DNA from: Arenicola marina
Taxonomy: Eukaryota > Annelida > Polychaeta > Arenicolidae
Direction of reading: 5' to 3'
DNA length: 64,000 nucleotides
Assembly: GCA_964019135.1 (NCBI GenBank)
Contig: OZ025252.1
Coordinates: 7,642,823 to 7,706,822, forward strand
In this document: positions 4,273-63,123 of the stretch, piece by piece
Numbering within the stretch: the stretch's first letter is position 1
How the letters are laid out: each line of letters opens with the position of its first letter
Program-made: the position numbers and the translations under genes
The notes under the pieces: model-generated
The model's input: the letters and a program-made list of their open reading frames with translations, nothing else
What the model was told of the DNA's origin: nothing
The model's database searches: none

Positions 4273-6293
4273 GGTTGATGCATTTGATGTCGATGCAGGT
4301 AGTTTTAATATCCATTTGCAATATTTCACTTGGACACTCTCTATACCGTCCTTCACCCTATATCCCCAAATCTCTGCTCCATATGTTAGAATCGGCAATA
4401 CCATTTTATCAAATAATTCGAATTGGATCTTAGGTTCTAACCCACCACATTTGTTATTTACAGATTTAATAAAATTCCCGGTCTTTCCTGCTTGTGCGGA
4501 GAGGATTTGCTGAGCCAAGGTCCAGACTAGTTTAGGGGTAAAAACCAGCCCTAGATACTTATAAGATGATACAGTCTCTATCCTCTTTCCTGTCAAGAAC
4601 CATTTTTCATTTCTCTTCTGTATCCCCCCATTCCTGAAAACCATAACCTTCGTCTTGTTTAAATTAATTAATAATCCCCAGCTTTCACAGAACTCGCTAA
4701 GCTTATCAATAAGTTTATGTAATCTACCCACAGTATCAGCTGCTTCAATCATATACATTGATTGCAAGACTCTAGTATTCTCCCATGGACACCTTCTGTG
4801 AGCAGTCTATACCAAATGAACTGATGCGGAATAGAGTCAAATGCTTTCTCTAAGTCAACAAAAATGCAATAGAATCTTCCTCCTGCCTTACTAATATATT
4901 TCTGTACCATACCTTGTAATACAAACATGTGGTCTATGGTTGATTTTCCTTTTCTAAATCCGGCTTGTTCTTCATACTGCTTATTATTTAAATCTGCCCA
5001 TGCTACTGGTCTATTGTTAATTGCCTTTGTAAACACCGTGTTAATAGCTGATAAGAGGGATATTCCCCTGTAGTTATTTGGATCTGATCGGTCACCTTTC
5101 TTATGAATAGGCACTAAAAGGGCCTCTGTCCATGGTTTCGGGAAATGACCAGAACTCATAATTTGATTGGCAAGGTCAGTAAGTATTGGTACTGAAACAG
5201 CACAGCTATTTTTCATGGCTTCCGTTAGGACACCATCTGGCCCTGGTGAGTTCTTACTTGGCAGGCTATGGATTACATAATATATTTCTTCAGTGGTGAA
5301 GTCTGAATTCAGTTCTTCAGGTATACCCTCTATACACAAGTGGCATTTAGTGCTTACATGAGTACTAAGTAATTCGTTTACCATCGCTTTCGTCTCAGGT
5401 GTCATCCTATTTGCTCTGTTTAAGAGGGTTGCAAAATGCCTATTCCACTCTTTTGGAGATATACTACCTTGCTGTGCTGTGACACCAGCACTCTTTTTGA
5501 TCTGCCTGCAAGCCCTCCAACAGCTTTCTGTAGTGACCATAGCTTGTCTCACTTTCTCTGTTTCTTCATCTTTCCACTGCTGTTCTTTTTACTAATACCT
5601 AACGCATATTCTCTTCTAGCTCTTATGTAGTTCTGTAAGTACCCACTGTTTCTAGTTTTTCTATATTTATTTAAGTACCTTAGCTTTGTTCTTTTCAGTT
5701 CTTTACATTCTGAGTCAAAGAATTTACAGCCATCGTGACATCCTTTTCTCTTGGTGTTAACTTTCATTTCACTACACAGGTATCTATACAATTTACTCAA
5801 GGTTTCCACTGTTTCTTCTATATCACCACTTAAAACCAGATGTCTCGCTTCTTGGTAATATGTCTCTGCTTGATCATCTTTTAATCTTTTCTGAAAATCT
5901 ACAACCTTATCTGATCTCCATGAATAGAGTAAACGGGGTTGCAGTTGGATTTCATTACATTGATCATCAGTAGTTAAATAGTTACATATGAGGCTAACCT
6001 GAATAGGTAGATGCCAGGATTCCGTTCTAGATAAAATTTCAAATTGCTTAATCTTCACAAATAGACTTGTTGAAGCTATACATTAGTCTATGACAGACTT
6101 CCCATTTGGTGATATAAAAGTAAAGCAACCCTCTGGGTCTCCTGGCATTCTCCCATTCAAAAAGTGTACATTAAATGTCTTACATAATTCTACTAAATCT
6201 TTTCCAAATCTGTTAACCTCTTTATCTATATTATTTCTAGCTACTGGGAAACTATCTTCTTCATACCAATGCAAACATAAGGGACTTGTGGAA
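4273..6293 (-). pseudogene. Non-LTR retrotransposon B inserted in A (APE endonuclease and RT fragments)
   Basis: A second LINE copy on the minus strand, truncated at both ends. Reading 5' to 3': the C-terminal part of an apurinic-type endonuclease (6083-6293, with NGRMPGDPEGCFTFISPNGK), a basic connecting region (5549-6058), RT blocks (4749-5552: SPGPDGVLTEAMK, PNNYRGISLLS, QAGFRKGKSTIDHMF, IFVDLEKAFDS), then the thumb-side region (4273-4767, with SYKYLGLVF and LPILTYGAEIWGY). The segment that should hold the catalytic YADD box is missing at the 4749-4767 junction, so the copy is dead. Flanking sequence on both sides belongs to element A. Confidence 0.85.
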
Positions 6294-13761: not shown

Positions 13762-14850
13762 TCAGTGAATGCTTCTCCAGCTTGTCAAGTACAGCCGTTT
13801 CAGATGATCTGTCACGTGTCGACTATAAATGATGATATCGTCGAGATAGACCAGGAGCAGTTTGAACACCTCATCCCGGAACACGTGACCCATAAGTCGC
13901 GCAAAGGTCGCCGGCGCGTTCGACAATCCGAACGGCATGCGTTTATATTCGTACAGCCCCATCGGCGTCACGAAGGCCGTCTGGTGTTGGTCTGCAGGCT
14001 TGACCTCCACCTGGTTGCACGCCGATGCCAAGTCCAGAGCCGAGAAGACACACGCACCCTTCATCGACTCCAGGGCTTCTTCAATTCGCGAGAGCGGGTA
14101 CGAGTCCTTTTTCACCTTGGCGTTCAAGCGGCGGTAGTCGACGCATAGTCGCAGCTCGCCGCTCTTCTTCCGAACCAGTACCACAGGTGACGCAAACGCA
14201 GATGCACTCTCGCGGATGACACCTATAGTCAGGAGTTCCTGGAGGCGCGTTTTTACCTCAGACCAGTCATGAGGCGGGATTCTCCGGTACGGCTGTTGGA
14301 CGGAGACGTCGTCCGAAGTCACGATCTGGTGGCGTATCGTCGAAGTGCAGCTCAACTCCTCCCCATTTTTTGCAAACACGCCTTCGTACCGCCGGAAAAT
14401 GCACTTTGCCCGCGCAAGCTCAGCCGCTGTCCCCGCGAAGCTCTCCTCCAATCTCTCGTCGATGTTTACTTCTGTCGCAGCGACCGGGCTGAGCCGGGCT
14501 TCCACATCACAGGACACGATGACCTCGTTCCAGTGAACACTGATGCCGATATCTCCTACTCCGACATCTTCCACGAGTCGAAACGTGACGATCCTGGTGC
14601 CCGTACGCAGCGTCACATCGACGTCTCCCACGTTCATTATTTGCACGTACACTGCCCCTCCGTCGCCGTTAACAGCAGTGCTGCCCACAATAAGTGGTCT
14701 CGCCACTTGATGGGACAGTGGCTCAAAGATGGCGAGTCCGTCTTTCGGGCCGGTCACATTGATGCTCGAGATGCTTCGCGCTGGAGCGATCTGCGGCTCC
14801 GGTCCGGCAACCGTGGCAACACCCGGTGCTTCCCCTTCCTGGCTTGGCAT
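13762..14850 (-). pseudogene. Ty3/gypsy-like retrotransposon pol (reverse transcriptase)
   Basis: A 362-codon open frame. About residues 1-110 form the linker after protease. Residues 185-345 carry Ty3/gypsy RT blocks in order: VVLVRKKSGELRLCVDYRRL, YPLSRIEEAL, FSALDLASACNQV, PFGLSNAPATFARLM and LLVYLDDIIIYS with the YLDD catalytic pair. The RT core is therefore intact, but the frame ends within the thumb region. Gag and a protease remnant lie upstream on the same strand. RNase H is incomplete and integrase absent, so the element is not autonomous. It looks like a retrotransposon; no envelope gene is seen. Confidence 0.9.
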
Positions 14851-21682: not shown

Positions 21683-23462
21683 TAATAGTTAATTTAATTT
21701 AAGAATTTAAACATTTCTAATATTAAATCGATAAGTTGTAACTTTTTAAATGTAGCACTACTACCCTAAATGTAATACTAATTGGTATGTGAAATAATAT
21801 ATTCTGTAATACCAGTATTCATAATGAAGTGGCTTCCCCCTCCACTTAGTGCTCCCTTAGGCACCAAGGGGCACCCGCGGAACACCCCGCCCCCCCCCCC
21901 CCCCCACCAGATTTGTATAACAGCCCCCCCCATACCCCCACCCCCAGGATGCCGGTTACAGTTTGGTTAACAGATCAGATTAATGCAATCTGCTGATCAG
22001 GTTGAATTCTCCTTTGCCGTTAGCTTTGGTCAAGGCAGTGGCTGTCTTTCAACGTATCGCCGCACATAAACACTGTCATTTTGTTTTAAATGCACAAATG
22101 GCATTCTTGACTCCCAATAGATCGAAATGTGCAAGACAACTCTAAAACAAGGTCTTCCCCGGCAAATATTGCTCAACCAATGAGAATGCGCGATACGGCG
22201 GTGTCTCGGATCTGGGCCCGCAGCCAATGACAGCCTTGCACAAGTTGGGCAGTGATGGACTCTTCTTGGGTGAGGGGAGTTCGTGGAGGAGACTATATAT
22301 GTATACGCATTGCCTGAGTACTGACTACAATGCGCGCCATGTTTTAAGATGTTTTAAGAAGGGTTGACATTAGCTCGTGACTCGTCAACGTTGTCATCAG
22401 CGTGGTGACTGTTTCGTTAGCGGGGAGGCGACTGCGAGAATGTCTGAATGGCAAAGCATGATTGGTTTCGATAGAGTCATCTAAAGCGACATATGCCTGG
22501 GCTGACATGGAATTGTCAACAGTGAAGCCGAGATGCTGTGGCAAGGAACGGTTCTACCATTTGTTTCATAGGGAGCTACCTGAAGTTATCATTTGGATTG
22601 GGCATGGTTAGATGTGTTGATTGTACAAAGAGAAGTGTGACATGACGTTATCCAATTTATAACTTCGAAAGACCATCTTATTTTTTACTGATTACAGCCT
22701 GAAAGCTCTTTGAAATTTGTGTAACGTACAGAAAGACATCTTTAGAGGTCGATGCTTGAAAGCGATAACCGTCAGTGTTAATCCTTTGTGTGTTAACAGT
22801 CCGCATGCCACTTATAACTACAAAATAATGGGCGAAAACAATCAACACGGCGCGGCTTCACGGCCAATTATATATATATAGCGTGATCCAGTGTGATACT
22901 GTTGTGGGCGTGAGTGTCAGAGGCCGCCCCGGAAAATCTAAATAACCCCCACAATTACCCCCGCACGAATTAATTCACTGTCGATTCAATGGGACGAAAG
23001 CAAACCTACTGTTGCGTTTCTGCTGAGCGTTCACACTGGAAACTACTAACTTGGACAAAGTGTTTACACTTTTCGTAGTCTCTCGGTGGTCTCTCGGTTG
23101 TCTTCCCTATATACTGGGCTCCTTTACACTAATATGGGGTTGTTACCTCCTCTGAAACGCAAAATCCAAGAATTAGAGAGAGCCATATCGAAACTCCAAG
23201 ACGAGGATTGTTCACTTGGCGCGAAAAATCTTAGTGATATGACGAATGTCGAGGAATTCATATACATATACTGCTATCACGGAACGCGGTAAATAGGGAA
23301 CGGGTCTTTGCGTTGCACCACGTATTGTACGGATAACGATCCCCACAAATTGCCAACAGTTAATCGCGAATTTCCATGAATACCTCGATGCCAATGGCGG
23401 AGATCGGAAAAGTTATTCCCTCCCCTCTACAATCGGAGAGAGGCCGGCGTAACCGGCCCATG
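21683..23462. other. No gene confirmed
   Basis: C tract at 21891-21905. A short frame at 23086-23292 contains a coiled-coil-like PPLKRKIQELERAISKLQDE segment but no splice or homology support. The rest looks non-coding. Confidence 0.4.
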
Positions 23463-25563
23463 ATAATGTGTCCGGAAGTGATAATGTGTCCGGCCGTGAT
23501 AATGAGTTCGGCCGTGATAATGTGTCCGGCCGTGATAATGTGTCCGGCCGTGATAATGTGTCCGGCCGTGATAATGTGTCCGGCCGTGATAATGTGTCCG
23601 GCCGTGATAATGTGTCCGGCCGTGATAATGTGTCCGGCCGTGATAATGCGTCCGGCCGTGATAATGTGTCCGGCCGTGATAATGCGTCCGGCCGTGATAA
23701 TGTGTCCGGCCGTGCTAATGTGTCCGGCCGTGCTAATGTGTCCGGCCGTGCTAATGTGTCCGGCCGTGATAATGTGTCCGGCCGTGATAATGTGTCCGGC
23801 CGTGATAATGTGTCCGGCCGTGATAATGCGTCCGGCCGTGATAATGTGTCCGGCCGTGCTAATGTGTCCGGCCGTAATAATGTGTCCGGCCGTGATAATG
23901 TGTCCGGCCGTGCTAATGTGTCCGGCCGTGATAATGTGTCCGGCCGTGCTAATGTGTCCGGCCGTGATAATGTGTCCGGCCGTGATAATGTGTCCGGCCG
24001 TGATAATGTGTCCGGCCGTGATAATGTGTCCGGCCGTGATAATGTGTCCGGCCGTGATAATGTGTCCGGCCGTGATAATGTGTCCGGCCGTGACAATGTG
24101 TCCGGCCGTGATAATGTGTCCGGCCGTGATAATGTGTCCGGCCGTGATAATGTGTCCGGCCGTGATAATGTGTCCGGCCGTGATAATGTGTCCGGCCGTG
24201 ATAATGTGTCCGGCCGTGCTAATGTGTCCGGCCGTGATAATGTGTCCGGCCGTGATAATGTGTCCGGCCGTGATAATGTGTCCGGCCGTGCTAATGTGTC
24301 CGGCCGTGATAATGTGTCCGGCCGTGATAATGTGTCCGGCCGTGATAATGTGTCCGGCCGTGATAATGTGTCCGGCCGTGCTAATGTGTCCGGCCGTGAT
24401 AATGTGTCCGGCCGTGATAATGTGTCCGGCCGTGATAATGTGTCCGGCCGTGCTAATGTGTCCGGCCGTGATAATGTGTCCGGCCGTGATAATGTGTCCG
24501 GCCGTGATAATGTGTCCGGCCGTGATAATGTATTCGGCCGTGATAATGTGTCCGGCCGTGATAATGTGTCCGGCCGTGATAATGTATTCGGCCGTGATAA
24601 TGTGTCCGGCCGTGATAATGTGTCCGGCCGTGATAATGTGTCCGGCCGTGACAATGTGTCCGGCCGTGATAATGTGTCCGGCCGTGATAATGTGTCCGGC
24701 CGTGATAATGTGTCCGGCCGTGATAATGTGTCCGGCCGTGATAATGTGTCCGGCCGTGATAATGTGTCCGGCCGTGCTAATGTGTCCGGCCGTGATAATG
24801 TGTCCGGCCGTGATAATGTGTCCGGCCGTGATAATGTGTCCGGCCGTGCTAATGTGTCCGGCCGTGATAATGTGTCCGGCCGTGATAATGTGTCCGGCCG
24901 TGATAATGTGTCCGGCCGTGATAATGTATTCGGCCGTGATAATGTGTCCGGCCGTGATAATGTGTCCGGCCGTGATAATGTATTCGGCCGTGATAATGTG
25001 TTCGGCCGTGATAATGTGTCCAGCCGTGATAATGTGTCCGGGCGTGATAATGTGTCCGGCCGTGATAATGTGTTCGGCCGTGATAATGTGTCCGGCCGTG
25101 ATAATGTGTCCGGCCGTGATAATGTGTCCGGCCGTGATAATGTGTCCGGCCGTGATAATGTGTCCGGCCGTGATAATGTGTCCGGCCGTGATAATGTGTC
25201 CGGCCGTGATAATGTATTCGGCCGTGATAATGTGTCCGGCCGTGATAATGTGTCCGGCCGTGATAATGTGTCCGGCCGTGATAATGCGTCCGGCCGTGAT
25301 AATGTGTCCGGCCGTGATAATGTGTCAGGCCGTGATAATGTGTCCGGCCGTGATAATGTGTCCGGCCGTGATAATGTGTTCGGCCGTGATAATGTGTCCG
25401 GCCGTGACAATGTGTCCGGCCGTGATAATGTGTCCGGCCGTGAGAATGTGTCCGGCCGTGATAATGTGTCCGGCCGTGATAATGTGTCCGGCCGTGATAA
25501 TGTGTCAGGCCGTGATAATGTGTCCGGCCGTGACAATGTGTCCGGCCGTGATAATGTGTCCGT
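23463..25563 (+). repeat. 18-bp satellite array, about 116 units
   Basis: Head-to-tail copies of CGGCCGTGATAATGTGTC, each with an EagI-type CGGCCG and two CpGs. Common variants: GTGCTAAT for GTGATAAT, GCGTCC for GTGTCC, TATTCGG for TGTCCGG, GACAAT for GATAAT. Because 18 is divisible by three and few stops occur, three frames stay open for over 700 codons; they are by-products. Variant order shows larger duplicated blocks. The unit differs at about two positions from the terminal subrepeat of the element at 15640-15891. Confidence 0.98.
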
Positions 25564-26839: not shown

Positions 26840-27039
26840 NNNNNNNNNNNNNNNNNNNNNNNNNNNNNNNNNNNNNNNNNNNNNNNNNNNNNNNNNNNNN
26901 NNNNNNNNNNNNNNNNNNNNNNNNNNNNNNNNNNNNNNNNNNNNNNNNNNNNNNNNNNNNNNNNNNNNNNNNNNNNNNNNNNNNNNNNNNNNNNNNNNNN
27001 NNNNNNNNNNNNNNNNNNNNNNNNNNNNNNNNNNNNNNN
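26840..27039. other. Assembly gap (200 N)
   Basis: Exactly 200 Ns, the size commonly used for gaps of unknown length. It falls inside an inverted tandem array, which is hard to assemble. Confidence 1.
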
Positions 27040-28221: not shown

Positions 28222-28440
28222 AAAGCTCCATTTTGCCGACAGAAAGCTCCATTTTGCCAACAGAAAGCGCTATTTTATCCACAGAAAGCTCCATTTTGCC
28301 AACAGAAAGCTCCATTTTGCCAACAGAAAGCTCCATTATGCCAACAGAAAGCTCCATTTTACCAACAGAAAGCTCCATTTTACCAACAGAAAGCTATATT
28401 CTATTTTGTCAACAGAAAGCTCTATTGGGCATAAGTTGCT
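28222..28440 (+). repeat. 21-bp tandem repeat in the palindrome spacer
   Basis: About ten degenerate units of CAGAAAGCTCCATTTTGCCAA. The period of 21 keeps frames open on both strands (MELSVGK repeats), which are not genes. Confidence 0.95.
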
Positions 28441-44409: not shown

Positions 44410-47400
44410 TTAGCTGGGACTGACGCCCAGTTTCTGGAGCACACGCAGTCCCTGCTCCTGGTACTCCTTGCGGGACATCCAGAAGGTGTCCTTGTCCTTC
44501 ATGATGTCGGCCAGGACGGCGCCGCCCAGGAACACCATGTGCTTTCGTCGCGGGGGGTCTTCAATCCGGATCTTGAATTTCTGTGGGACGATGGATATCG
44601 AAGAAGTGAAAATACGCAGTAAATATATATATGTGTGTATACACAATATTCATCTTTTACCATTGCTCAAATAGGAAATAATAAAATCCTATGAAGTCAT
44701 ATATATATATATATGCCACGGATATGTGGACGGGCCCCGTGATCCCCCGCCCCCTTTCAAACACCGCTTTATGCCCCACGCCCTCAGCTTCATGGCCCCC
44801 TCACATTTCAGTCCTGCATGTTCCCTCTTTCATCTCCCCTCTAGTCATAAGTTGTGGGAAAGACTATCCTCTACCCTCTTCGTCAGTTTTAAAGCCCTCA
44901 GAAACTGGCTTCTTTGCACAAAACATCCCTTGACCACCCCCTAGCGGCGCTTACCGACAACCGTTCCACGTCTCCCTTCAACACCCCCTAGCGGCGCTTC
45001 CCGACAACCGCTCCACGTCTCCCTTGCGCACCCCCAAGCGGCGCTTACCGACAACCGTTCCACGTCTCCCTTGAGCACCCCCTAGCGGCGCTTACCGACA
45101 ACCGTTCCACGTCTCCCTTCAGCACCCCCTAGCGGCGCTTACCGACAACCGTTCCACGTCTCCCTGGAGCACCCCCTAGGGGCGCTTACCGACAACCGTC
45201 TCCCTTGAGCATCCCCTAGCGGCGCTTACCGACAACCGTTCCACGTCTCCCTTGCGCACCCCCTAGCGGCGCTTACCGACAACCGTTCCACGTCTCCCTT
45301 GCGCACCCCCTAGCGGCGCTTACCGACAACCGTTCCACGTCTCCCTTGCGCACCCCCTAGTGGCGCTTACCGACAACCGTTCCACGTCTCCCTTGAGCAC
45401 CCCCTAGCGGCGCTAACCAACAACCCTTCCACATCTCCCTTGCGCACCCCCTAGCGGCGCTTACCGACAGCCGTTCCACGTCTCCCTTGAGCACGCGCTC
45501 CAGGTAGAGTTGCTTCATCTCGCGCTCCAGCCTGGAAGGCAGTCCGGGGTACATGGTGGAGCCCCCGGACAGCACGATGTGCTTGTAGAACTCGGACCGC
45601 GTGTCCATGTCGGCCGCTTGGATGGTGTTGAAGAGCAGTTCGGCGATGCCCACGCCCTCCACGTTGATAAGGTGGGGCTGGAAGAGCGCCTCGGCCGCGC
45701 CGAACCTCTCCCCGCCAACCTTGATCACCCGGCCGTCCGGTAGCTGCGGGCACACGGCACTCAGTCATAACAACAGCTATAATAATATTAATAATAACCA
45801 TCGTGATAATGATAATAGCAATTGTAACATTAGTCATTGTAATAATACTAGAAATAATAATTGTAACAATTTTTATAATAATTGTAATCATTTTAATAAT
45901 AATTTTAATAATCATTGTAATAATTTTAATAATTTTAATAATCGTTGCAATAATTTAAATAAGTCAGTCATAATGTTATAACAATCATTGTAATAGTACT
46001 AAAAAAATAGCCATTTTAAAACAATACTTATAGTCATAATAACAACACTAGAACCAGTATGAGTCAATTTGAATCTCAATCCTACTAACTTAGCTATATA
46101 CATAGACTGAGACATTTAAGCTCCTTCAGTGCAGATGAAGTGAAATCGGTTCAGGAGCCCTTCCGTACGGTTACAATGAAATGGGGTTAGATAGAACATG
46201 CCTCACATGCAGGTAGCAGGGTGCGAACCCACGACCTTGTGATACGCAACCATGGGCTCTCCCACACGAGAGCGAGCCATGGGCTCCCCCACACGGGAGC
46301 GAGCCATGGGCTCCCCAACACGGGAGCGAACCATCGGCTCCCCCACACGGGAGCGAACCATGACCTCCCCCATACGTGAGCGAACCATGGCCTCCCCCAC
46401 ACGGGAGCGAACCATGGCCTCCCACACACGGGAGCGAACCATGGCCTCCCCCACACGGGAGCGAACCATGACCTCCCCCATACGTGAGCGAACCATGGGC
46501 TCCCCCACTCGGGAGCGAGCCATGGGCTCCCCAACACGGGAGCGAACCATGGCCTCCCCCACACGGGAGCGAACCATGGCCTCCCCCACAAGGGAGCGAA
46601 CCATGGCCTCCCACACACGGGAGCGAACCATGGGCTCCCAAACACGGAACCGAACCATGGCCTCCCCCAACACGGGAGCGAGCCAAGGGCTCCCCCACAC
46701 GGGAGCGAACCATGGGCTCCCCCACACGGGAGCGAACCATGGGTTCCCCCACACGGGAGCGAGCCATGGGCTCCCCCACACGGGAGCGAGCCATGGGCTC
46801 CCTTCACACGGGAGCGAACCATGGGCTCCCCCACACGGGAGCGAGCCATGGGCTCCCCCACACGGGAGAGAGCCATGGGCTTTCCCACACGGGAGCGAAC
46901 CATGGGCTCCCCCACACGGGAGTGAGCCATGGGCTCCCTCACACGGGAGTGAGCCATGGGCTCCCCCACACGGGAGCGAGCCATGGGCTCCCCAACACGG
47001 GAGCGAACCATCGGCTCCCCCACACGGGAGCGAACCATGACCTCCCCCACTCGGGAGCGAGCCATGGGCTCCCCAACACGGGAGCGAACCATGGCCTCCC
47101 CCACACGGGAGCGAACCATGGCCTCCCCCACAAGGGAGCGAACCATGGCCTCCCACACACGGGAGCGAACCATGGGCTCCCAAACACGGAACCGAACCAT
47201 GGCCTCCCCCAACACGGGAGCGAGCCAAGGGCTCCCCCACACGGGAGCGAACCATGGGCTCCCCCACACGGGAGCGAACCATGGGTTCCCCCACACGGGA
47301 GCGAGCCATGGGCTCCCCCACACGGGAGCGAGCCATGGGCTCCCTTCACACGGGAGCGAACCATGGGCTCCCCCACACGGGAGCGAGCCATGGGCTCCCC

Positions 47401-49895
47401 CACACGGGAGAGAGCCATGGGCTTTCCCACACGGGAGCGAGCCATGGGCTCCCCCACACGGGAGTGAGCCATGGGCTCCCTCACACGGGAGCGAGCCATG
47501 GGCTCCCCCACACGGGAGCGAACCATGGGTTCCCCTACACGGGAGCGAGCCATGGGCTCCCCCACACGGGAGCGAGCCATGGTCTCCCCCACACGGGAGC
47601 GAGCCATGGGCTCCCCCACACGGGAGCGAGCCATGGGTTCCCCTACACGGGAGCGAACCATGGCCTCCCCCACAAGGGAGCGAGCCATGGGCTCCCCCAC
47701 ACGGGAGCAAACCATGGGCTCCCAAACACGGAAGCGAACCATGGCCTCCCCCAACACGGGAGCGAGCCAAGGGCTCCCCCACACGGGAGCGAACCATGGG
47801 CTCCCCCACACGGGAGCAAACCATGGGTTCCCCCACACGGGAGCGAGCCATGGGCTCCCCCACACGGGAGCGAGCCATGGGCTCCCTCACACGGGAGCGA
47901 GTCATGGGCTCCCCCACACGGGAGCGAGTCATGGGCTCCCCCACACGGGAGCGAGCCATGGGCTCCCCCACACGGGAGCGAGCCATGGGCTCCCCCACAC
48001 GGGAGCGAGCCATGGGCTCCCCCACACGGGAGCGAACCATGGGCTCCCCCACACGGGAGCGAGCAGACCACACTCGAACCCTTACCGTGTAGGATTCCAC
48101 CAACACTGTGGTCTCCAGGGCCAGCTTCTCCTCTTGTTCGATGTCATAGGCCACATAGGCCAGTTTCTCCTTCATTAGTCGGACGGTCTCGAAGTCGGCG
48201 GAATGGTTGAAGGCGTAACCTCTTAACAAAAGCAGCTGGAAACATAACAGCTCAAAGATGGACTACAGGACGGCCACACTGCATTAAACGCTGTAATCAT
48301 TTATATTAAAACGATTAAACTGATTGCTTAATTGGATCTCCCATTAAACTTCATATGACATAACGGTAATAAACGGTAAAAATTAAAACGAATATGATAA
48401 AAAAAAACTATGTATCCTTTGACACTGCTTTCTCTCACGGTCTACATTGTATTTATTAATTGACCAACTATTATTAATATTATCAATTGAAGCTGTCTTT
48501 TTTCATATAGGGCTCAATTATTTTTAACAGCGAAGTTTAATAAAGCGATATTGGGGCTCCTGGAGTCCTTCAGGTACCTACCTTGATGAGATACTTGGTG
48601 ATATCACGACCAGCTATGTCGAGTCGCTTCGTGAGATGAGGGAGAGCGAAGCCCTCATACACTGGACAAATATGGGTGACACCGTCTCCGGAATCCACCA
48701 CCACACCAGTCAGCAAACCTACAGCAGACAGTGTCATAGAGATGAACAACCCCTCAAATCAATATTTGAGTTACATCTTACGTCACCATCATCCAGGGTA
48801 GACAAGTAGTACCGTATGTCGAAATTAACCTCAAGGCAAAGAAGTTATCCTTCACGACAATCAAAGCATTATGAATTGCAGCTGACATCAATTTCTGCCT
48901 TGATGTGGGTTTAATGGCACTTTCAGTCTGTATATATATACTTGTATATCTATATAATTAATGTTATATGACGCCACACAACTCACCTTGAGCATACAGT
49001 GTTAGCACAGCCTGGATGGCGACATACAACCCATGGAACTGGTACTGCTCAAACATCACCTGTCAAGTACAATACAACAGCATAAGAAATGGCAGTTCTT
49101 CTTTGTACAGTTTGTAAAGAAGTAATTTACCATACATGTCTACGTATATAACCGAGCCGTCAGAAGTCAAGTGTTCATATAAAAGTAGGAAACAATGACA
49201 ATGCGCGGTGTGATACCTATATACACTATAGTTGGTTGGTTGTATATTCAGGACGTTTTAACCACTTTTGGTCATATCGCGTCAAAGGGGGGAAGAAAGG
49301 GAGAGTGGAGCCATGTCCCCGGGGGTAACCACCTACACTTTGCGAAGAAGGACATGGGGTCTTTACCCTGCGACCACACAGACATGACCACAGCGGGACT
49401 CGAACCACCGACCCACGTGCCGTTAGGCTCTCAGGTGGCCAGAGCACTCAATGCGAGCGCTCTAGCCCACTGAACTACCGGGCCGGCCCCATATACACTA
49501 TGGTAACCAATACCAATGGGCAGTGTGATATAACCTTACCTCCACCATGCGTTCCCGGTTACGTGTGGGGTTCATCGGAGGCTCTGTCAGCAACAACTTG
49601 GTCTGCGTGGGGTCAATGTTGAGCTTCTCGGGGCCAAATGTGTAGTTGTAGAGATGTGTCATGTCATCCCAGTTACGCACAATGCCGTTCTCCATGGGGT
49701 ACGTCACCTCCAGCATGGCCCGCAGCTGGCTGGCCTCATCGCCAATCATAAGATCCTACGGCAAAAAAGAAAACTCTTCAGTACGCGGTCACCGTTATAA
49801 GAATGTTAAATAAATGATTAACAACTATAATTTTACCGCTGCACTGTATCACACCTCTTTTATATTTTTTTATATTGATTATATTCTTCTTCTTC

Positions 49896-49929
<34 letters not shown>

Positions 49930-52900
49930 TCTTATCTATCGCACACATCTATACAGTAAATACCTGTATATCATGGTTCAACAGGTTTTTTACAGTTTGG
50001 TTAGAAGAGGAAGAGAAAATGTAAACTCTGCATTCCTCTCCTAATAGAACTCACCTTGATTTCGATATCTCCAATCTTTGTGGAGGATCTCAAAATTGGC
50101 CTGCCCACCAATGATGGGAATATGTGGGCCGGGAAGTTTGACCCAGCAAAGCCACATTTTACAAACTGAAATACATAGAAATACATCCATAAAGTTTCAA
50201 CAGTGTATGAAATAAATGTGTATTGATCAAAGGGTATAAACTATCAAACAAATTTATACCGGTACCTTTACTGAAGCAAACTGAAATAGAGGAGATTACG
50301 ATAAGGCATATCTTGTACTTGTGCATTGGTCAATGTTTTACTACATCAATAGCAGCCCTACAGATAGATACAGATTACCTGCAGCATCCATCAGATGTTA
50401 GCCTCAAATACCTCCACCACAGACCACCTCTCTGAGATTTTGACATGCTGCTATCGCATTCAACATTCAACAGCTAGTGATAGGGGCATTTGTGGCTTTA
50501 CAGCTGAGAGACACTGAAAGGCTTTAGAAAACTATTACTCCCTGTACATAATTATTAACATTATGAAAGCAAATGGCAGTTGCCACTGAAAAATGTACAA
50601 TACCGGTATAGGTTTTAATAGGTTTTTGCAGACCAAATGTTGTGGCTTATATTAGGTAGTTGGAGGTTCCACTTTCTGGGTTTGAGTCGCAAGTCAGGGT
50701 GCAGCTTTAAATTGGGCCTTTTGCCGATTTAAAGGGAGCCTGGCGAGACAAGGCGGGTGGGGGGGGGGGGGGGGTAATACAAAAATTACTGCCAAATTAG
50801 TGTTGCCAAAATAATGTAGTGCATCATAACGTCATACAAGTCTGGAGATCATTCAACTTGAAAGCTGCATCATAAGATGTTCCTTTCCCAGGCATTGTGT
50901 TACCATGGCAATCAAGACTGACAGTGAGCTACTTATGGTTGTGTTATTTATTACTACTGCCACGCGACGCCGCCCACACCGATTGTAGACCAATGATCAG
51001 AGGCCAGGTTTCAGGTGGTGTAAATTGATACGGCTGCTGCCAGCCTCGTACCAAATGTAATAAGTTAATTGTGCCAGACAGAAACTTGATACTGGGTAGG
51101 TACAACAGTGATTCATAAACATGCAGTAAGAGCCAGGAGAGCCAGCCACTGGTGTGACACTTGATAAGAGCTGCGAACGGAGAGGGAGAGGTGAATGTTG
51201 TTAGTTGAGGCGACTGCTTGCAAAAACAATTAATTGGCTTGGTAGGGGCCAGGAGAGCCAGCCACTGGTGTGACCCCTGAAACCTGCATACCCATACTTG
51301 CCCAGGACAACTACAATTTAAGCCAGGTGACAAGTATCTGCCTGGTTGGTGACTGAACATTGCATTTATAAAAAACAATCTACCCCTAGAGCTTTTACTA
51401 TACATTACCATAGCTATATAACTTGAGTGCAGTAAAGTAATGGTTTTAAACCAATTTATAATGGATGACTATATTTACATAAGTTAGAAGCCTGCATGGA
51501 TACTAGAAAAAGTTCTTAGATCTAACTGTAAACCACTGCACTAGGTAGGAATAGATATGGTACACATTTAAAAGGGTTATGCATCCACAAAGGCAGTTAA
51601 TGTCTAATTTATAAGATTCTAAGCGATCTGCATATTCATTTTAACATCTTTTTCTCACAATCACTGTATTGATTAGTATATAAATAAAAATGTTAGGCTT
51701 CCAGCTGCTAACTCCACATCAGAGACCATAACTTCTTGTCTTGTTGGAACAGCTTGTAGATAAGAATATTGAGCCCATGGGTACTGGTATACAAAGTATT
51801 AATGTTATACACTGTGACTGACAATGCCACTATATCAGTAGAGTAATATCAGTATAGTGGTCAATACATAAAGATCTTTCATAATACAACTCCCTCCGTT
51901 ATGCAGGCTTTTCGCCATACACAGAACACTTACATGTCAAAACCCCTTTTTATATTTATTTGGGCCCCGTTATATGACTGCTTATATCTAGTTATATCTA
52001 TATCTAGGTAGTTGATTGGTAGAAGTGCAAGCCCCACTTCTCTAGCAGAGAAATGAGGCTAGCCTGGAGGAATCTGCGCTAAGGCAGTCAAATGCTGATA
52101 TTATTTAAACAGCACAGAGCTGGAGACCTGGTTATCAGCATCCCAGCATCGTCTAAATACTGATTCAGACAATTGTTGAGATTAACCAGAATTTTTGTTC
52201 GCAAGTCTTTTTTTTAATAATAAAATATTTACATAAAATTGTAATCGCAATGATTTCTTCAAAACCTCCTGACCAAAAAAATAGCATCTGAATAATGCCA
52301 AAGTAAAAGTCTGCTCACCCAACTTGAAACTGCCTACCCATTCGGCAGGCAGGCGGGTCTCTGGCTAATACCTGATTGAGATACCACTATTGTCATGAAT
52401 AAGTGGGAGAAGGGAGCCAGACAAGTTGATGTTTGATTGGTGTATTATCAATTATGGTTCGATTATCAAATGTTATGATGCTTGAGCCTAGATGGCATAT
52501 CAGTGCATATGGGGTACGGGTAAACCACGAATCGGGTCCACGGTGGGTGAAAAAACGTTACAGCTCCAAAATGTTGCGGTTTCCTCTTCCCTAATGGATA
52601 TACCTTGCTGCATAAAATGTAATAGTTCTTAGTTTATAACGTCACAATACCATTACCGCCAATACGGCCACCCAATCACTCTGTTTCGCTCCGTTTCGTG
52701 AAACAGAGTCCGTTTCGTGGTCAACCCTCTATTATACAGTCTTTTCGGGCTGGCAGAACAGAAGTTGTATAATGCAGGGACCACTATAGATCTACTCTTT
52801 AGATCGGTGACTTTGCTTTTAAAACTGGCTTCATCAGTGTTCATAGACATAGGCATAGCCATTCAATTGAGCCATTGAGAGGTTACCTCAAACTGTCAAA

Positions 52901-53218
52901 TGTTTTCTTTACCTACTGGTGCAGTTTATGTTTCGTCAATTGGAAAAATTACCACACGTCATCATCTTGAGTACAAGAAGATATAGATTGAGGAGTGTGT
53001 ACTTATCGATAATTGATTAAACAATCGAAAAAGTTAAACCGATAGAATCACTTCCTGATTTGTCTCGGAGGATCTGACAACTGATGTAAATAACAAAATA
53101 TATCGGCCATTTTATAGAAATCCTTAGCATCAAGCGTCATAATAAAATGCACGTCGCATCCAATACATACTCCTGTCCCGTTGTCACAAATGACAACTTT
53201 CCTTCCTTGGCTATCCAT
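44410..53218 (-). CDS. ACTR2: Actin-related protein 2 (Arp2/3 complex subunit), 8 exons
   Basis: Complete gene encoding 394 residues, the usual Arp2 length. Arp2 is an actin-fold ATP-binding subunit of the Arp2/3 complex, which nucleates branched actin filaments in the cytoplasm. Coding exons (5' to 3'): 53218-53171, 50165-50055, 49755-49540, 49059-48987, 48718-48582, 48235-48086, 45743-45465, 44580-44410. All introns are GT-AG and every phase agrees. Visible motifs: start [16 protein letters not shown] then FVKCGFAG (phosphate loop 1), [30 protein letters not shown] (phosphate loop 2), [46 protein letters not shown], and the C-terminal [17 protein letters not shown]. Introns 6 and 7 carry large minisatellites, intron 3 a SINE; intron 1 is 5 kb short of nothing else coding (about 3 kb). 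The gene shares a 253-bp upstream interval with the neudesin-like gene. Confidence 0.98.
44581..45464 (-). other. Arp2 intron 7
   Basis: GTAAGC donor at 45464 and CCCACAG acceptor at 44581. More than half of it is the 47-bp splice-donor minisatellite. A TA microsatellite lies near 44699-44714. Confidence 0.9.
44936..45464 (-). repeat. 47-bp minisatellite that duplicates the exon 7 splice donor
   Basis: About eleven units follow the true exon 7 end. Each consists of a copy of the last 30 exonic bases (from GTGCTCAAGGGAGACG to TCG) plus the first 17 intronic bases (GTAAGCGCCGCTAGGGG). About nine keep an intact TCG|GTAAGC; the unit near 45000 has lost GT and the one near 45420 is weakened. One unit is shortened near 45190. 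Read from exon 7, the frame stays open 35 codons to a TAG at 45357-45359. Confidence 0.95.
45770..45970. repeat. AAT/ATT-rich low-complexity stretch
   Basis: Imperfect TAATAAT, TTTAATAAT and TTGTAATAA units in Arp2 intron 6; open frames here are artefacts. Confidence 0.8.
46199..46246 (-). repeat. tRNA-like T-arm at the edge of the minisatellite
   Basis: The minus strand reads CACAAGGTCGTGGGTTCGCA and CCCTGC, a plausible T-arm with a B-box-like GGGTTCGCACCC. The upstream half of a tRNA-like head is absent, replaced by the 27-bp array. Probably a truncated SINE. Confidence 0.4.
46247..48066 (-). repeat. 27-bp minisatellite in Arp2 intron 6
   Basis: About 67 units of CCATGGGCTCCCCCACACGG plus GAGCGAG (plus strand), with variants (GGCC for GGGC, GAAC for GAGC, TTCACACG). 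Larger blocks are duplicated: the variant order at about 46315-46930 recurs at about 46985-47480. The unit is nine codons long, so frames are open on both strands; the exon 6 frame runs through the whole array. It ends 20 bases from the exon 6 donor. Confidence 0.97.
48236..48581 (-). other. Arp2 intron 5
   Basis: GTAGGT donor and TTTCCAG acceptor; no repeat noticed. Confidence 0.9.
49230..49490 (-). mobile_element. tRNA-derived SINE, copy 2, in Arp2 intron 3
   Basis: 261 bp flanked by a perfect 11-bp target duplication ATATACACTAT (49219-49229 and 49491-49501). A box TAGTTCAGTGGG (49466-49477, minus strand) and B box GGTTCGAGTCC (49396-49406). It aligns with the copy at 19664-19938. The head lies about 50 bases from the exon 3 splice donor. 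Confidence 0.93.
49892..49927. repeat. (ATT)n microsatellite
   Basis: About eleven ATT units in Arp2 intron 2. Confidence 0.9.
50166..53170 (-). other. Arp2 intron 1
   Basis: Three kilobases with a GTATGT donor. A 27-bp sequence beginning GCCAGGAGAGCCAGCCACTG occurs at 51132-51158 and 51248-51274. A G tract of about 18 lies at 50758-50775. The frames at 50944-51411 and elsewhere are not coding. Confidence 0.8.
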
Positions 53219-58013: not shown

Positions 58014-60300
58014 TAACATTCTTGTTTCTAAAGACGAAATATATCTCATCCCACTTCCTCTTTCCCTGTGCCGGAGGCTTCTTGTCCCACCATTACGTGG
58101 CATATAGTCTCACATCTTTACGTTGCGTGACGGCTCTGTTTGGAGGTTGAGCGGATGGCCCTATTGTGCAATAGGAGTCACGGACGGCTGGCTGCAATGA
58201 AAGACGTTTTAGTGGGCTGTATGTTTTCTGTTAACACGTAGAAAAGGGCTTCATGTGTACTCGACTGAGGACTGGCCAAAACCAAGTATCGGCAGAGTTA
58301 GAGCCTGTAGGACGAGGAACCACTGCATGAATCGAGCATTGAAGGCACCTGTTATGACTAACAGCAAAAAGTGGCCGTGTGCGATATGCACATGATCACA
58401 TTTAGGAATTTGCCACATGTATCGACGTCTACATCCTGGGCCAATAGAAGGGTGGTCTCAACTTGAACGTGAGAAACAAGGCGGAGAACATGGTGTTCTA
58501 ACAATAGCGGAGTGCTGTTGAAAAGCCGATGAGGACTGCATTGCGACTATCTACATGGCATCTCCTCCGAAGGGATCCACTGGCGAGATGGACGGTGAGT
58601 GACAATTTCTACCCTGACCCATCAGGAGTGAACGCCTAGCGTGTGAACATTCGCCGCTTTTGACATTTTTGTTTCTATCCAGGTGTCTTTGGTGGGGCCT
58701 AATATTTGAAAATTAATATTGAGAATAAAATGAAACATTTTACGTTTATTACCCATTCCAAAAATACCCCCACGTGATTCATACATATTCGTATATGATA
58801 TCACATATGAAATTTGTGATATAAAGTATATACATATATCTATATACATTCGGCACGACTCATTCCTGGTATATGACTAATGAGTGGACTTTAAACATGC
58901 ATGTGGAGTTGTTTCGCTGTTTTTGAATGCCAAATTTGCGTATAAGAACACAAACCTAAGGCCTTAAGGTTCATAACAGACAATAAACACCTACCATATC
59001 GCTCACCAATTATCTGCCAATGAGCAAAACATTTCAAATTCATGAATTGTCCGCCACAAAAATGAAAACTTATGCTGATTTGAAACGTCATAAACGTGTG
59101 TACACCGGTGCCACCGACAGGGGGCCCAAGCGCTGAATTATATGAGACAATAGAAGCATCCGGAGGGCCACTTTTTCTTTGGCGGTGGCCGTTGACACTG
59201 CTTGTGGTCAAAGGTAACATTTCCTGTTTATGTTTATTTTGGTACAGCCGTTCGAACACACGATGATATTTGCGCGGAATGGTTTATTTAATATGAGGTT
59301 AAAGTTCAACTCCTCGGTCCCAAGGAACTTTCAAGACATAAATTCCAATATAGGCCTATATATCGCGCCATCAAAATAGAATACCTGTTAAGTTTATTTG
59401 GGTGCACTATTAGAAAGATTTGCCATTGTCCCATATGACGCTTTAACATATTCGATGTTTCGTGACGTAAATGTAGGTTCCCATTTGAAGACCTGGTGCG
59501 TTGTACGCATACGGGTGGTTACACTATTTCTTTTGGTAGTAATTCTGTTAGAAAACATCGGAACGTAAAGTAAAATGCTATTCCAGATATTATTATGTCA
59601 ACATATCAAACACGTACTGGTTATCTCGTTTCTAAATCATTCACACCATTCACCTACCTATAGGGCTATACAGTTCTCGCGGTCGGGCCGCGAGACTTCA
59701 GTTTTGGGGACAAACAAACACACGTGCTCCATGTTGAAGTATAGGCAGCTATAAGTCAATTTCTTTCCAGGTTTATTCTAAAGACTATGAGTACCATTTC
59801 ACTAAACATGGCTATGGGAGATATACGTTAAAATATTTGGAGGCGATGAAGCGCAGGACTTTGGGAATATACAAGGATTTTTTTTTGAAATTTTAAATTA
59901 TAATTTTTTTTTAGAAAAAACAAGCTAAAAATAACGTTCTAAATTTAGCCTTGCACCCGGGCTTTCGCAAGTTCACCAATAGCGAGTGACAGGGCGCCTT
60001 CTTTGCACCATATAAGTATATATCAGTACATGACCAAGAAGCGGCGCGCGGTGCTAGACAACTAGGCGGCTATGGGGGCCACTTAATTTTACGACTTAAG
60101 TTAACGAGAAGCTATAGCCCTTAAACTTTATAGCCAACATCGTACGCGTTAATGGACATTTTCATCCGGGGTACAGCATTGGTGCATTCAAACGAATGGT
60201 TCGACGTTTTATTGCACCCATACATATGAGGTAATACGATTGGAAGCTGTCAAATGTCGTTCATATTTTTAATGTAATACCATTTTCAGATTCATTTCAG
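58014..60300. other. No gene confirmed upstream of the TRP-like frame
   Basis: The frames at 58622-58849 and 58891-59259 have no motif. 5' exons or the promoter of the channel gene may lie here but cannot be placed. Confidence 0.4.
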
Positions 60301-60426
60301 AAACAAACAACGACAAGTGGTGAGTTGCCAAGGAGACAGCACGGTTCTGGTAACCCCCACCAGACGGACAGACGTCCCAGAGCAAGGTCACGCAGTCACA
60401 ACCATGACAGTCCGCTTCATGACAAT

Positions 60427-63123
60427 ATGCCAAATGCCAAAAAAAATATGCCATGCAACGGAAATAATAATCGAAACGCTACAACGAAACTGAGTGAGAC
60501 CTCCCTCCATAAGGCCAACGGTAAGGTTCCTGGGACCCGTCAAACAGGGACGGACGGGAGCTTCATGGTGACTGTGATCCTACGAGACGCCCAGAGACGC
60601 TACAAGTTACGTCACACGAAGGAAGGACGTCGCCGCCAAACGCTTTTTTACCGCTTCGTGCGCGGTGGCGACATAGACGCCGTGCGTGACGTCATCAATC
60701 AGCTGTCGGGCCGAATGCACAGGAACGAGCGCGATTGGTTGCTAGGGACGCGCATCCCGCCTCCCGCGGAAGGACTGCGCAAGGTCATGGAGAGCGTGTG
60801 GAACGTCTGTCGGATGCTGTGTCTGGTGATCACGGCCGTCGTGCTTCTGGCCCTGGGCCCGGTGTTCTACCCTCTTCACGCCGCTGCAGTCTACGCCTGC
60901 GACAAGCTGAGGAAGCGAATCTCGGTGGATATCGACCTGCCTCTCGCCTTCGCGGCGCTGTCCTGTGACATCGAGATGATCAAGTTATTCCGACAGGAAG
61001 GAGTCTCTATGACCCAGACGGATAGCGGGGCTAATAATGTCTTTCATTATCTGGCTGATTTCTCGGTGGAAAAACCCGAGTTGAGCATTGAGTCTCTCCA
61101 CGTCCTTCTTCAGGCATATTCGGATCAGCTTCCTGACATCTATGACGTCATGACCCAGCAAACGAACTCGGGCGGTTTGACGGCCATGGAACAGGCGCTG
61201 AGACACGGAAGTCCCCGTATTTTTGAGGCTTTCGCCAACGTGGAAGGAATCTTAAAGAAAACTGTAATGACCATCGGTAAACATGGGTCCAAAGTGGGCT
61301 CGGATGAGATCGACGATCTCTTTCCCAAGATGCACGGCGTTGGTGTTATCACGAAGGGCAACCCCGAGATCTCGGCGCCGTCGCTGAGCCGACGCGGAAG
61401 TGGCTCCAGCAGCGAGACGAGCGCCACCCGCAGTGACGACACGCGGCGGTACCGGCTGATTCGCTATGACGTCACGCGGTACGAAAGCGCCGATATCATG
61501 GGCAAGCAGAGTCGCCTTCTGCTGTTGCTCACCTGCAAGGACTTTGAGAACATGCCGGAAGCGGATATGGACACACTGGGTAACATCTGCTTTCTGCGTG
61601 AATGGGCCCGCATGAAGGTGTCTAGTGTGATGTGGGTTATGGTCCTCCGTAATCTAATGAGTGTCATCTTCACAGTTGTTCTCATCGTTCTCCTCGTCAA
61701 CACAGACGGCGACGACAACGTGCACCCGTTGAGGACCATGTTTGACGACCAACTCGCCAGCGTGCGGCTTCACGCCAAAATGGAGCACATGGCCTCCACT
61801 TCCCAGAACGGTGATGTCACGGACACACCACACATAGTGGGTGACGTCACGGATATAACGGTTAAAATCGATCATTCGAACGCAATAAATGACGCCACAG
61901 CAATTGACGCTACGGATATCGGCAGGAGCGTCACGAATAGAAACAACAATACAAGAGTCGTCAACATGTTCTCTACACTCACCCTGGATGGTAACGACAA
62001 GCAACCGACCACGACTGACCCTAGTGACAGCCAGTCACGTGGGATCTCGTTGCCAGGAGACGGTGACGAGCCAGACTTTTGCGTCGGGGAGGCGCAGGAA
62101 GTGGCGGGTGTGGTGCTGGACAGTTGTCAGTACGAGGCATTCCTTTACCTGCAAGAACAATGTCTAGGACGCGTCACTGATGACGTCATCCTCAGGAAGT
62201 CGGCGTTGAAACCTTTGCTAATCGATTTTCACCTGATCGGACAAATTAAGATCATCCTCTGCATCATCTCGGCCGCGTTTGTTATTTCCGAATTGCTAAC
62301 CCGACTGGTTTTTATCGTCAGGCGCTTCTCGCTGCGTCGAGGGGCGGTCAGCAGCTCCCTCTACCAGATCATGTCCTGCCGACTGCCCGGTTCTTACTTC
62401 GACCGAGGCTGCCGCTTCATCAACTCGGTCATGTTTGTGACGTACTTGGAAGTGGTGAAGCCATTCGCTGGCGGGCAGGTCATGCCGCCAGAAGAAGTTA
62501 TTTGGCGCGAGGCTGCCGCTGTCTATCTCATCAACGGCGTCTTCCTCCTGAGCTTCGCGCAGCTGATATGGGCCCTCCGCCTCCTACCGGCGGTCGGAAC
62601 CTTCATCATCAGTATCTTCTACATGGGACGAGACTTGGCCAACTTCCTGGTCGTCTACGCCTTCGTTCTCGTGGCCTTCTCGTCCATTTTCCAGGCGGTG
62701 ATGCGGGACCCGGACTGCCCAGCGATCAGACAGGAGGCCTTCACCACCCTCCCGTCCAGCGCCTTCCAAGCCTTTAACCTCATGCTGGGGCAGGGCGACT
62801 TTGCCTACGATACGAGTGACGCGGCCCTCTATGCCTACATCTCCTACTCCATCATCGTCATCTTGCTCCTGCTCAACCTCATCATCGCCGTCATGAGTCG
62901 GACGGCCGACACCGTCATGAGCTCCCCCTGGCGGGAAACCTTGCAGAAGATGGAGATTCTGGGCGAGGCTTTGGAGCAGGAAGCCAACCTCTTGTGCTGG
63001 ACCTTCCCATGCCGGAAGTGGCTGCACCGGAAGAGGATGGAAAGCACCGGTTACGTCATCAGGAATGGAGAAACCCCGGACGCCGACAGAAGAGTCTTTA
63101 TCGAGGTGGAGGAAGAGAATTAA
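60427..63123 (+). CDS. TRP-superfamily cation channel, uninterrupted coding exon
   Basis: First in-frame ATG at 60427 gives 898 residues; the frame is also open upstream to acceptor-like TTTTCAG/TTTCAG sites at 60287-60300, so an earlier exon may exist. Numbering from 60427: basic Asn-rich N-terminus; ankyrin-like segments at about 71-92, 171-212 and 248-275; a hydrophobic stretch at 130-155; S1 about 400-424; a very long S1-S2 loop (about 425-598) with Asn-X-Thr sites and Cys; S2 about 604-630; S3-S5 about 697-760; pore loop SSAFQAFNLMLGQGDF (777-792); S6 SIIVILLLLNLIIAVMSRTA (808-827). The S6 ending LLNLIIAVM and the pore loop fit TRP-type channels of the plasma membrane, tetrameric and cation-conducting. 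Subfamily (TRPV, TRPC or TRPA-like) not resolved. Ends in TAA with an acidic tail. Confidence 0.85.
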   Translation: MPNAKKNMPCNGNNNRNATTKLSETSLHKANGKVPGTRQTGTDGSFMVTVILRDAQRRYKLRHTKEGRRRQTLFYRFVRGGDIDAVRDVINQLSGRMHRNERDWLLGTRIPPPAEGLRKVMESVWNVCRMLCLVITAVVLLALGPVFYPLHAAAVYACDKLRKRISVDIDLPLAFAALSCDIEMIKLFRQEGVSMTQTDSGANNVFHYLADFSVEKPELSIESLHVLLQAYSDQLPDIYDVMTQQTNSGGLTAMEQALRHGSPRIFEAFANVEGILKKTVMTIGKHGSKVGSDEIDDLFPKMHGVGVITKGNPEISAPSLSRRGSGSSSETSATRSDDTRRYRLIRYDVTRYESADIMGKQSRLLLLLTCKDFENMPEADMDTLGNICFLREWARMKVSSVMWVMVLRNLMSVIFTVVLIVLLVNTDGDDNVHPLRTMFDDQLASVRLHAKMEHMASTSQNGDVTDTPHIVGDVTDITVKIDHSNAINDATAIDATDIGRSVTNRNNNTRVVNMFSTLTLDGNDKQPTTTDPSDSQSRGISLPGDGDEPDFCVGEAQEVAGVVLDSCQYEAFLYLQEQCLGRVTDDVILRKSALKPLLIDFHLIGQIKIILCIISAAFVISELLTRLVFIVRRFSLRRGAVSSSLYQIMSCRLPGSYFDRGCRFINSVMFVTYLEVVKPFAGGQVMPPEEVIWREAAAVYLINGVFLLSFAQLIWALRLLPAVGTFIISIFYMGRDLANFLVVYAFVLVAFSSIFQAVMRDPDCPAIRQEAFTTLPSSAFQAFNLMLGQGDFAYDTSDAALYAYISYSIIVILLLLNLIIAVMSRTADTVMSSPWRETLQKMEILGEALEQEANLLCWTFPCRKWLHRKRMESTGYVIRNGETPDADRRVFIEVEEEN

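Follow-up and report, generated by a model that had tools for sequence, protein, structure and literature searches.

Minisatellite-like tandem duplications of exon/intron boundaries have been described in amphioxus, where they are called mirages and where the accessible parts of PMC3087553 and PMC3902484 place them in Adh3, troponin C, the globins BflGb6 and BflGb9 and PGBD5. Of the two papers, PMC3902484 adds PGBD5 and cites troponin C, and PMC3087553 cites Adh3 units of 10–72 bp together with somatic instability; in the portion of PMC3087553 available, the Adh3 data and RT-PCR of the globins suggest that regular splicing is undisturbed. A human minisatellite in 6-16/IFI6 is reported to give multiple splice donors (Turri et al. 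1995), and the gain of introns by tandem duplication of AG/GT sites was proposed by Rogers in 1989, as described in an excerpt of PMC3087553. From the annelids, minisatellites with a mean monomer of about 180 bp are described for intron 1 of earthworm metallothionein in the available section of PMC12783039.

We describe here a 47-bp array at an exon edge of the Arp2 gene of the annelid Arenicola marina. Given the published mirages it belongs to a known kind, and a preliminary description of the locus was wrong to state that no such case had been described. Boundary-spanning units, signals that are intact in many but not all of them and a location at 5' or 3' boundaries are common to the amphioxus mirages, as far as the retrieved text goes, and to the arrays of Arp2 and, as shown below, CCT7. 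The annelid arrays differ in their host, in reaching up to 40 edge copies per donor and in occurring at about one in ten sampled exons, against a handful of genes in the amphioxus text seen; the RT-PCR data are those of the amphioxus globins, the annelid arrays being described here from genome sequence. No annelid mirage turned up in the open-licence PMC text examined, and relative to that literature both the host, an annelid, and the prevalence are new. The earthworm metallothionein case shares with Arp2 the annelid host and the intronic minisatellite, but the accessible part of PMC12783039 states no exon edge within its unit. With the Rogers model the Arp2 array has in common that tandem duplication multiplies splice signals within a gene; in Arp2, however, an existing and probably old intron has been enlarged and a new intron is not evident.

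The exon 7/intron 7 array of Arp2

The window, by which we mean the whole stretch of 64,000 nucleotides that was analysed, carries on its minus strand an intact Arp2 gene with eight exons, GT-AG introns and an open frame of 394 aa (Table 1); the contig to which it belongs is 49.9 Mb long, in an assembly of 867 Mb. Residues 1–392 align to PDB Arp2 chains with E = 6.1e-241, and this alignment and the eight-exon frame agree with the preliminary description, in which the gene had been named Arp2 and the array placed at exon 7 of 8. Arp2 is present as a single copy in the assembly: neither a second copy nor a haplotig was found, the identity outside the locus being at most 63% among the 44 matches listed.

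Table 1. Positions in the window of the Arp2 gene, its exons and the parts of the array at the end of exon 7
Feature	Position	Strand	Basis or detail
Intact Arp2 gene (394 aa in eight coding exons)	44410..53218	-	joined frame and PDB alignment
Exon 1	53171-53218	-	
Exon 2	50055-50165	-	
Exon 3	49540-49755	-	
Exon 4	48987-49059	-	
Exon 5	48582-48718	-	
Exon 6	48086-48235	-	
Exon 7, 279 nt	45465..45743	-	acceptor GTGTGCCCGCAG, donor TCG/GTAAGC
Exon 8, coding part including stop, 171 nt	44410..44580	-	
47-bp minisatellite over the exon 7/intron 7 edge	44926..45494	-	TRF; true copy, 11 copies (one of 40 bp) and 12-nt partial
Exonic GTGCTCAAGGGA	45483..45494	-	possible seed of duplication
Authentic donor 9-mer TCG/GTAAGC	45459..45467	-	U1 duplex -8.2 kcal/mol
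Nearest donor copy, n = 1, TTG/GTTAGC	45412..45420	-	U1 duplex -4.1 kcal/mol
In-frame TAG past the true donor	45357..45359	-	predicted truncation at 373 aa for n >= 3
Eight copies, n = 2 to 9, intact TCG/GTAAGC	45043..45373	-	U1 energy equal to true donor
Copy n = 10, TCG/GGAAGC	44996..45004	-	GT lost
Copy n = 11, intact TCG/GTAAGC	44949..44957	-	
Intronic GTGGTCAAGGGA	44926..44937	-	possible partner seed or final partial copy

For the array TRF gives a period of 47, 12.3 copies, 90% matches and a score of 942. In gene orientation the unit at the true junction is GTGCTCAAGGGAGACGTGGAACGGCTGTCG/GTAAGCGCCGCTAGGGG (the slash marks the exon edge throughout), that is 30 nt of exon 7 followed by 17 nt of intron 7. 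Past the true end of exon 7 at 45465 we counted 11 copied junctions, with exon ends at 45418, 45371, 45324, 45277, 45230, 45190, 45143, 45096, 45049, 45002 and 44955. Alignment of the copies on the minus strand thereby upheld what had been claimed about the architecture, namely a 47-bp unit with a 30 + 17 split, about eleven repeats beyond the true junction and about nine that retain TCG/GTAAGC (9/11), with the exception that the exonic context differs slightly: GGTTGT stands in all 11 copies and GGCTGT in the true exon. Because of this common T against the C of the exon, the 11 copies probably descend from one another and not from the exon of today. Copy n = 6 is only 40 bp long and has lost 7 nt from its exonic part. 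The last unit is followed by GTGGTCAAGGGA, which matches the start of the unit in 11 of 12 letters and is either a partial copy or, possibly, one half of a short direct repeat from which the first duplication started. As in the mirages, the unit joins an exon end to an intron start, and the splice signal is kept in many, not all, of the copies. With 47 bp it is longer than the unit of 6-16/IFI6, which is reportedly about 12 bp long and the alternative donors of which are said to be used.

Edge arrays in other genes of the assembly

Three unrelated families (CCT/chaperonin, proteasome and AAA) were searched in the same assembly, and arrays with a period of at least 10 were counted if they overlapped the edge of an exon match, the exon ends being HMM-match ends that approximate the true ones. 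Such arrays were found at 9 of the 88 exon matches (CCT 7/46, proteasome 1/25, AAA 1/17; the Arp2 exon stands outside the 88) and in five genes, seven on the donor and two on the acceptor side, which means that the arrangement recurs in several genes at both kinds of boundary. The resulting figure of about one in ten refers to 88 matches of which more than half are CCT, and four of the nine cases lie in one gene. A first pass over 30 CCT loci had given straddling arrays in five of them. From the CCT family 46 of 49 matches were examined, the other three belonging to two loci that have long open frames; two of these three were scanned and contained no straddling array. For AAA 17 of 21 matches were examined; the four set aside were three from small contigs and one that equalled another in score and frame length. 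Arrays lying up to 60 nt away from a match without overlapping it were left uncounted, among them those at L058, L064, L069 and L074, which were inspected by sequence.

Four of the edge arrays belong to CCT7, two at donors (66 bp x 31 and 82 bp x 6.6) and two at acceptors (68 bp x 7 and 34 bp x 5). The 66-bp unit GGCGCCCTCGAG/GTGAGTGAG occurs as the true edge and 30 copies, 29 of which have the true 9-mer, and in the 68-bp acceptor array the unit of pyrimidine tract, CAG and exon start is present seven times with the true one last. The surrounding region (L044/L045, G000:C17:26056501-26074500) consists to 57% of tandem array. In the proteasome gene CCACTCAAA/GTAAGG returns about every 37 bp, its copy count being a lower bound as the array reaches the end of the stretch examined, and in the AAA gene GTCATGGCCAG/GTGAGTCC returns every 31 bp; the 41-bp array of CCT3 holds a single further copy of the exon edge. 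We take the proteasome gene to be PSMA3 and the AAA gene to be PSMC5. CCT3, CCT6 and CCT7 were named by the best NCBIfam single-exon match (gamma, zeta and eta), all of these matches scoring below the curated cut-offs, and the best match of the tested CCT7 exons was chap_CCT_eta.

When the seven donor arrays are taken together (Arp2 included, the 41-bp array of CCT3 left out), 95 of 117 copies are GT donors that differ from the true one by no more than 0.3 kcal/mol, ranging from 3/9 in the AAA gene, where weeding or drift could account for the low share, to 30/30 in CCT7. The first copy is intact in 5/7 arrays, and read-through past the true donor, with the frame taken as coding, hits a stop in 7/7. 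These arrays carry 6 to 39 further copies, so that up to 40 copies of the exon edge are found at one donor.

The share of tandem arrays is 25.5% in the CCT regions, 9.6% in the proteasome stretches and 3.9% in the AAA stretches. At the CCT donor edges array cover is 5/46 at 10 nt inside the match versus 11/46 at +100 to +200 nt, and at the acceptor edges 2/46 versus 2 to 4 of 45 in the flank. As the cover at the edge is no higher than in the flank, the arrays do not seek out exon edges but merely fail to spare them. In the same CCT regions (L042-L055) we also saw an excess of arrays on the donor side, 11/46 against 2/45 at +200 nt (p = 0.014, uncorrected); at other distances from +100 to +400 the comparison gave p = 0.04 to 0.12 (uncorrected), and at the edge itself 5/46 against 2/46 (p = 0.43).

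Origin of the array and choice of the splice site

Taking these results together we consider it probable that the Arp2 array is a mirage, which arose by blind tandem duplication across an exon edge and is tolerated and nearly neutral while the innermost sites are used. Tandem duplication of intronic DNA would occasionally take in an exon edge, each new unit then carrying the exon end and its donor. The process would be blind to the edge, frequent in this annelid genome and alike for donor and acceptor edges, and an event would survive only with a correct message, for which the innermost site, the one nearest to its partner across the exon, would be needed. Since the copies would be spliced out with the intron, the array should be close to neutral. 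It is the need for a working protein that points to use of the innermost splice site. This site is made first in donor arrays and last in acceptor arrays, and because acceptor decoys are transcribed before it, the order of synthesis should not be the general reason for its choice. Pairing across the exon, as in the exon definition described in the accessible part of PMC3488318, predicts the innermost pair at both edges. Of the three ideas raised in the preliminary description (splicing decoy, dosage control coupled to NMD, and accident of slippage), the accident is thus the one best supported, by the recurrence in unrelated genes, the missing enrichment at edges and the lack of detected selection, the last at low power. 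The similar edge arrays, found at roughly a tenth of the exons sampled, are likewise most likely tolerated accidents.

We regard it as unlikely that the array serves as a decoy or dosage control, in which case some transcripts would use downstream donors, their truncated forms would partly be destroyed by NMD and the length of the array would set the output of Arp2. This reading agrees with the pairing to U1. Against the 5' end of U1, each of the nine intact copies forms the same duplex as the true donor, in keeping with the array of equal-quality donors that had been proposed, and the duplex of the true exon 7 donor is weaker than those of exons 2–6 (-8.7 to -11.7 kcal/mol), though stronger than that of exon 1 (-5.1 kcal/mol). 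Intron 7 contains nine further GT sites as strong as its true donor, and introns 2–6 contain none. The strength of the duplex does not decide by itself, since intron 1, with its weak true donor, has 27 GT sites that equal or exceed that donor. Also in agreement with this reading, all predicted products are truncated, with 353 aa for n = 1, 375 aa for n = 2 and 373 aa for n >= 3 against 394 aa normally. As had been foreseen, n = 1 and n = 2 shift the frame, with a stop within exon 8, and n >= 3 runs into the in-frame TAG, which lies 33 nt ahead of the junction for n = 3 and at least 80 nt upstream of the last junction for n >= 4.

With exon 8 as the final coding exon, the suggested link to NMD would apply only for n >= 4: by the 50-nt rule and with the coding exons considered, seven of the nine intact decoys would be eligible (n = 4 to 9 and 11) and n = 2 and 3 would not, and the products of n = 1 to 3, which would escape, speak against control by decay. 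Nor did we detect conservation of the copied donors, a comparison of low power based on ten full-length copies with the 40-bp copy left out. The donor 9-mer has 3 changes in 90 sites versus 14/380 in the rest of the unit (p = 1.0), and the exonic part 13/300 versus 4/170 in the intronic part (p = 0.32); at this low power the copies look neither maintained nor purged. The nearest copy (n = 1), with 5 changes, is the most altered of the full-length ones; selection against the nearest rival donor is another possible cause, and this is a point against near-neutrality. Since the same arrangement is found in CCT3, CCT6, CCT7, the proteasome gene and the AAA gene, a control special to Arp2 is unlikely, and for amphioxus the available text of PMC3087553 suggests regular splicing.

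Quite unlikely in our view is a more general form of regulation, in which arrays of splice sites, with tens of donors that bind U1 as well as acceptors, would be a standing regulatory layer of this annelid lineage that holds splicing factors on the pre-mRNA. The number of units, which can change fast, would then tune the output of correct, truncated or prematurely ended transcripts of housekeeping genes, among them Arp2, CCT7 and proteasome subunits.

Other cues could assist the true donor. It is the only one of the 12 Arp2 donors with no GGGG in the 100 nt upstream and two GGGG downstream, and an arrangement of G-runs that favours a donor has a precedent in TP53 according to the accessible portion of PMC12062376. 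In Arp2 this polarity may be a further help for the true donor. As a general rule it was rejected: among the remaining six donor arrays it is present in CCT6 (0 upstream/2 downstream), partly present in CCT3 (1/3) and missing from four, namely the AAA array (1/0) and both CCT7 donor arrays and the proteasome array, which have no such run on either side. Hiding of the decoys by RNA structure was rejected as well, as the true donor ranked 1, 3, 3, 4, 8 or 9 of 12 by the unpaired probability of the donor 9-mer, depending on the window and span setting.

It is very improbable that the array is a remnant of the birth of intron 7, the splice sites of which would have been made by tandem duplication according to the Rogers model. 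Tandem donor units are the raw material of this model, which has been proposed for amphioxus globins (PMC3087553), but the acceptor edge of exon 8 is not copied in intron 7 (best ungapped match 15/32), and a new intron bounded by copies of one segment was not found. A weak argument in the same direction comes from a scallop Arp2 isoform X1 (P0059), in which the two residues SK are inserted precisely where exons 7 and 8 meet; a pattern search of the best 120 of 3804 homologues found no other insertion of this kind. The insertion suggests that in a mollusc an intron at this position is alternatively spliced and, weakly, that the intron here is old. Tandem arrays are prone to error, but an array or copy number made by the assembler is highly unlikely too: the units here have private differences including the 7-nt deletion, the contig is 49.9 Mb long, and the architecture returns in independent genes that have other units.

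If the Arp2 array is a mirage as we propose, mirages occur in a phylum far removed from that of amphioxus, and it seems that they can be frequent. The choice among identical neighbouring splice sites has usually been studied with artificial constructs, and here natural ones are found in conserved genes: one genome offers sites that are almost alike in sequence but differ in position, both in donor arrays (6 to 39 extra copies) and in two acceptor arrays. Should it be true that only the innermost sites are used, this would be a strong in vivo case for a position-based (cross-exon) choice. If decoys are used instead, they would be an unsuspected source of isoforms.

Relatives of Arp2 and other features of the window

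Among the best 120 of 3804 matches to the Arp2 protein the top score belongs to a sturgeon record marked UNVERIFIED_CONTAM with 75% identity. The best-scoring named match besides it is from Paralvinella palmiformis (89%), and one unnamed row and one mouse row reach 89% and 88%, respectively; identity alone appears to be a poor guide to relationships here. No Branchiostoma was named in these 120, of which many rows are nameless and in which 90% clusters may hide members. In a tree of 46 rows (a selection from the 120 listed homologues and the window sequence) the latter stands beside Paralvinella, an annelid of the order Terebellida, with a support of 97/90. On these two results amphioxus, which the published mirages had brought up as a candidate source of the DNA, was rejected. 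The window and Paralvinella are enclosed in a set of 15 rows (98/91) with Ridgeia and Helobdella as the other named members, which we take to be annelids as well.

Tandem arrays account for 12.3% of the window. Intron 6 of Arp2 is largely a 27-bp x 67 minisatellite (46250..48064, minus strand) that begins 21 nt into the intron; it contains no copy of an exon edge, and one frame is open for 691 codons through exon 6 and this array. At 23461-25562 lies an 18-bp x 117 array (TGATAATGTGTCCGGCCG, 96% matches) with several open frames on both strands, and at 28222-28395 a 21-bp array with an acceptor-like unit (CCATTTTGCCAACAG/AAAG), where no gene was identified. A run of 200 N at 26840-27039, right after a 20-bp array, is probably an assembly gap. 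Rfam and tRNA scans of the window gave no matches. Matches to retroelement reverse transcriptases are present at 3353-4165, 4752-5588 and 13765-14850, and a single open frame of 962 codons at 60235-63123 on the plus strand encodes an Ion_trans domain.
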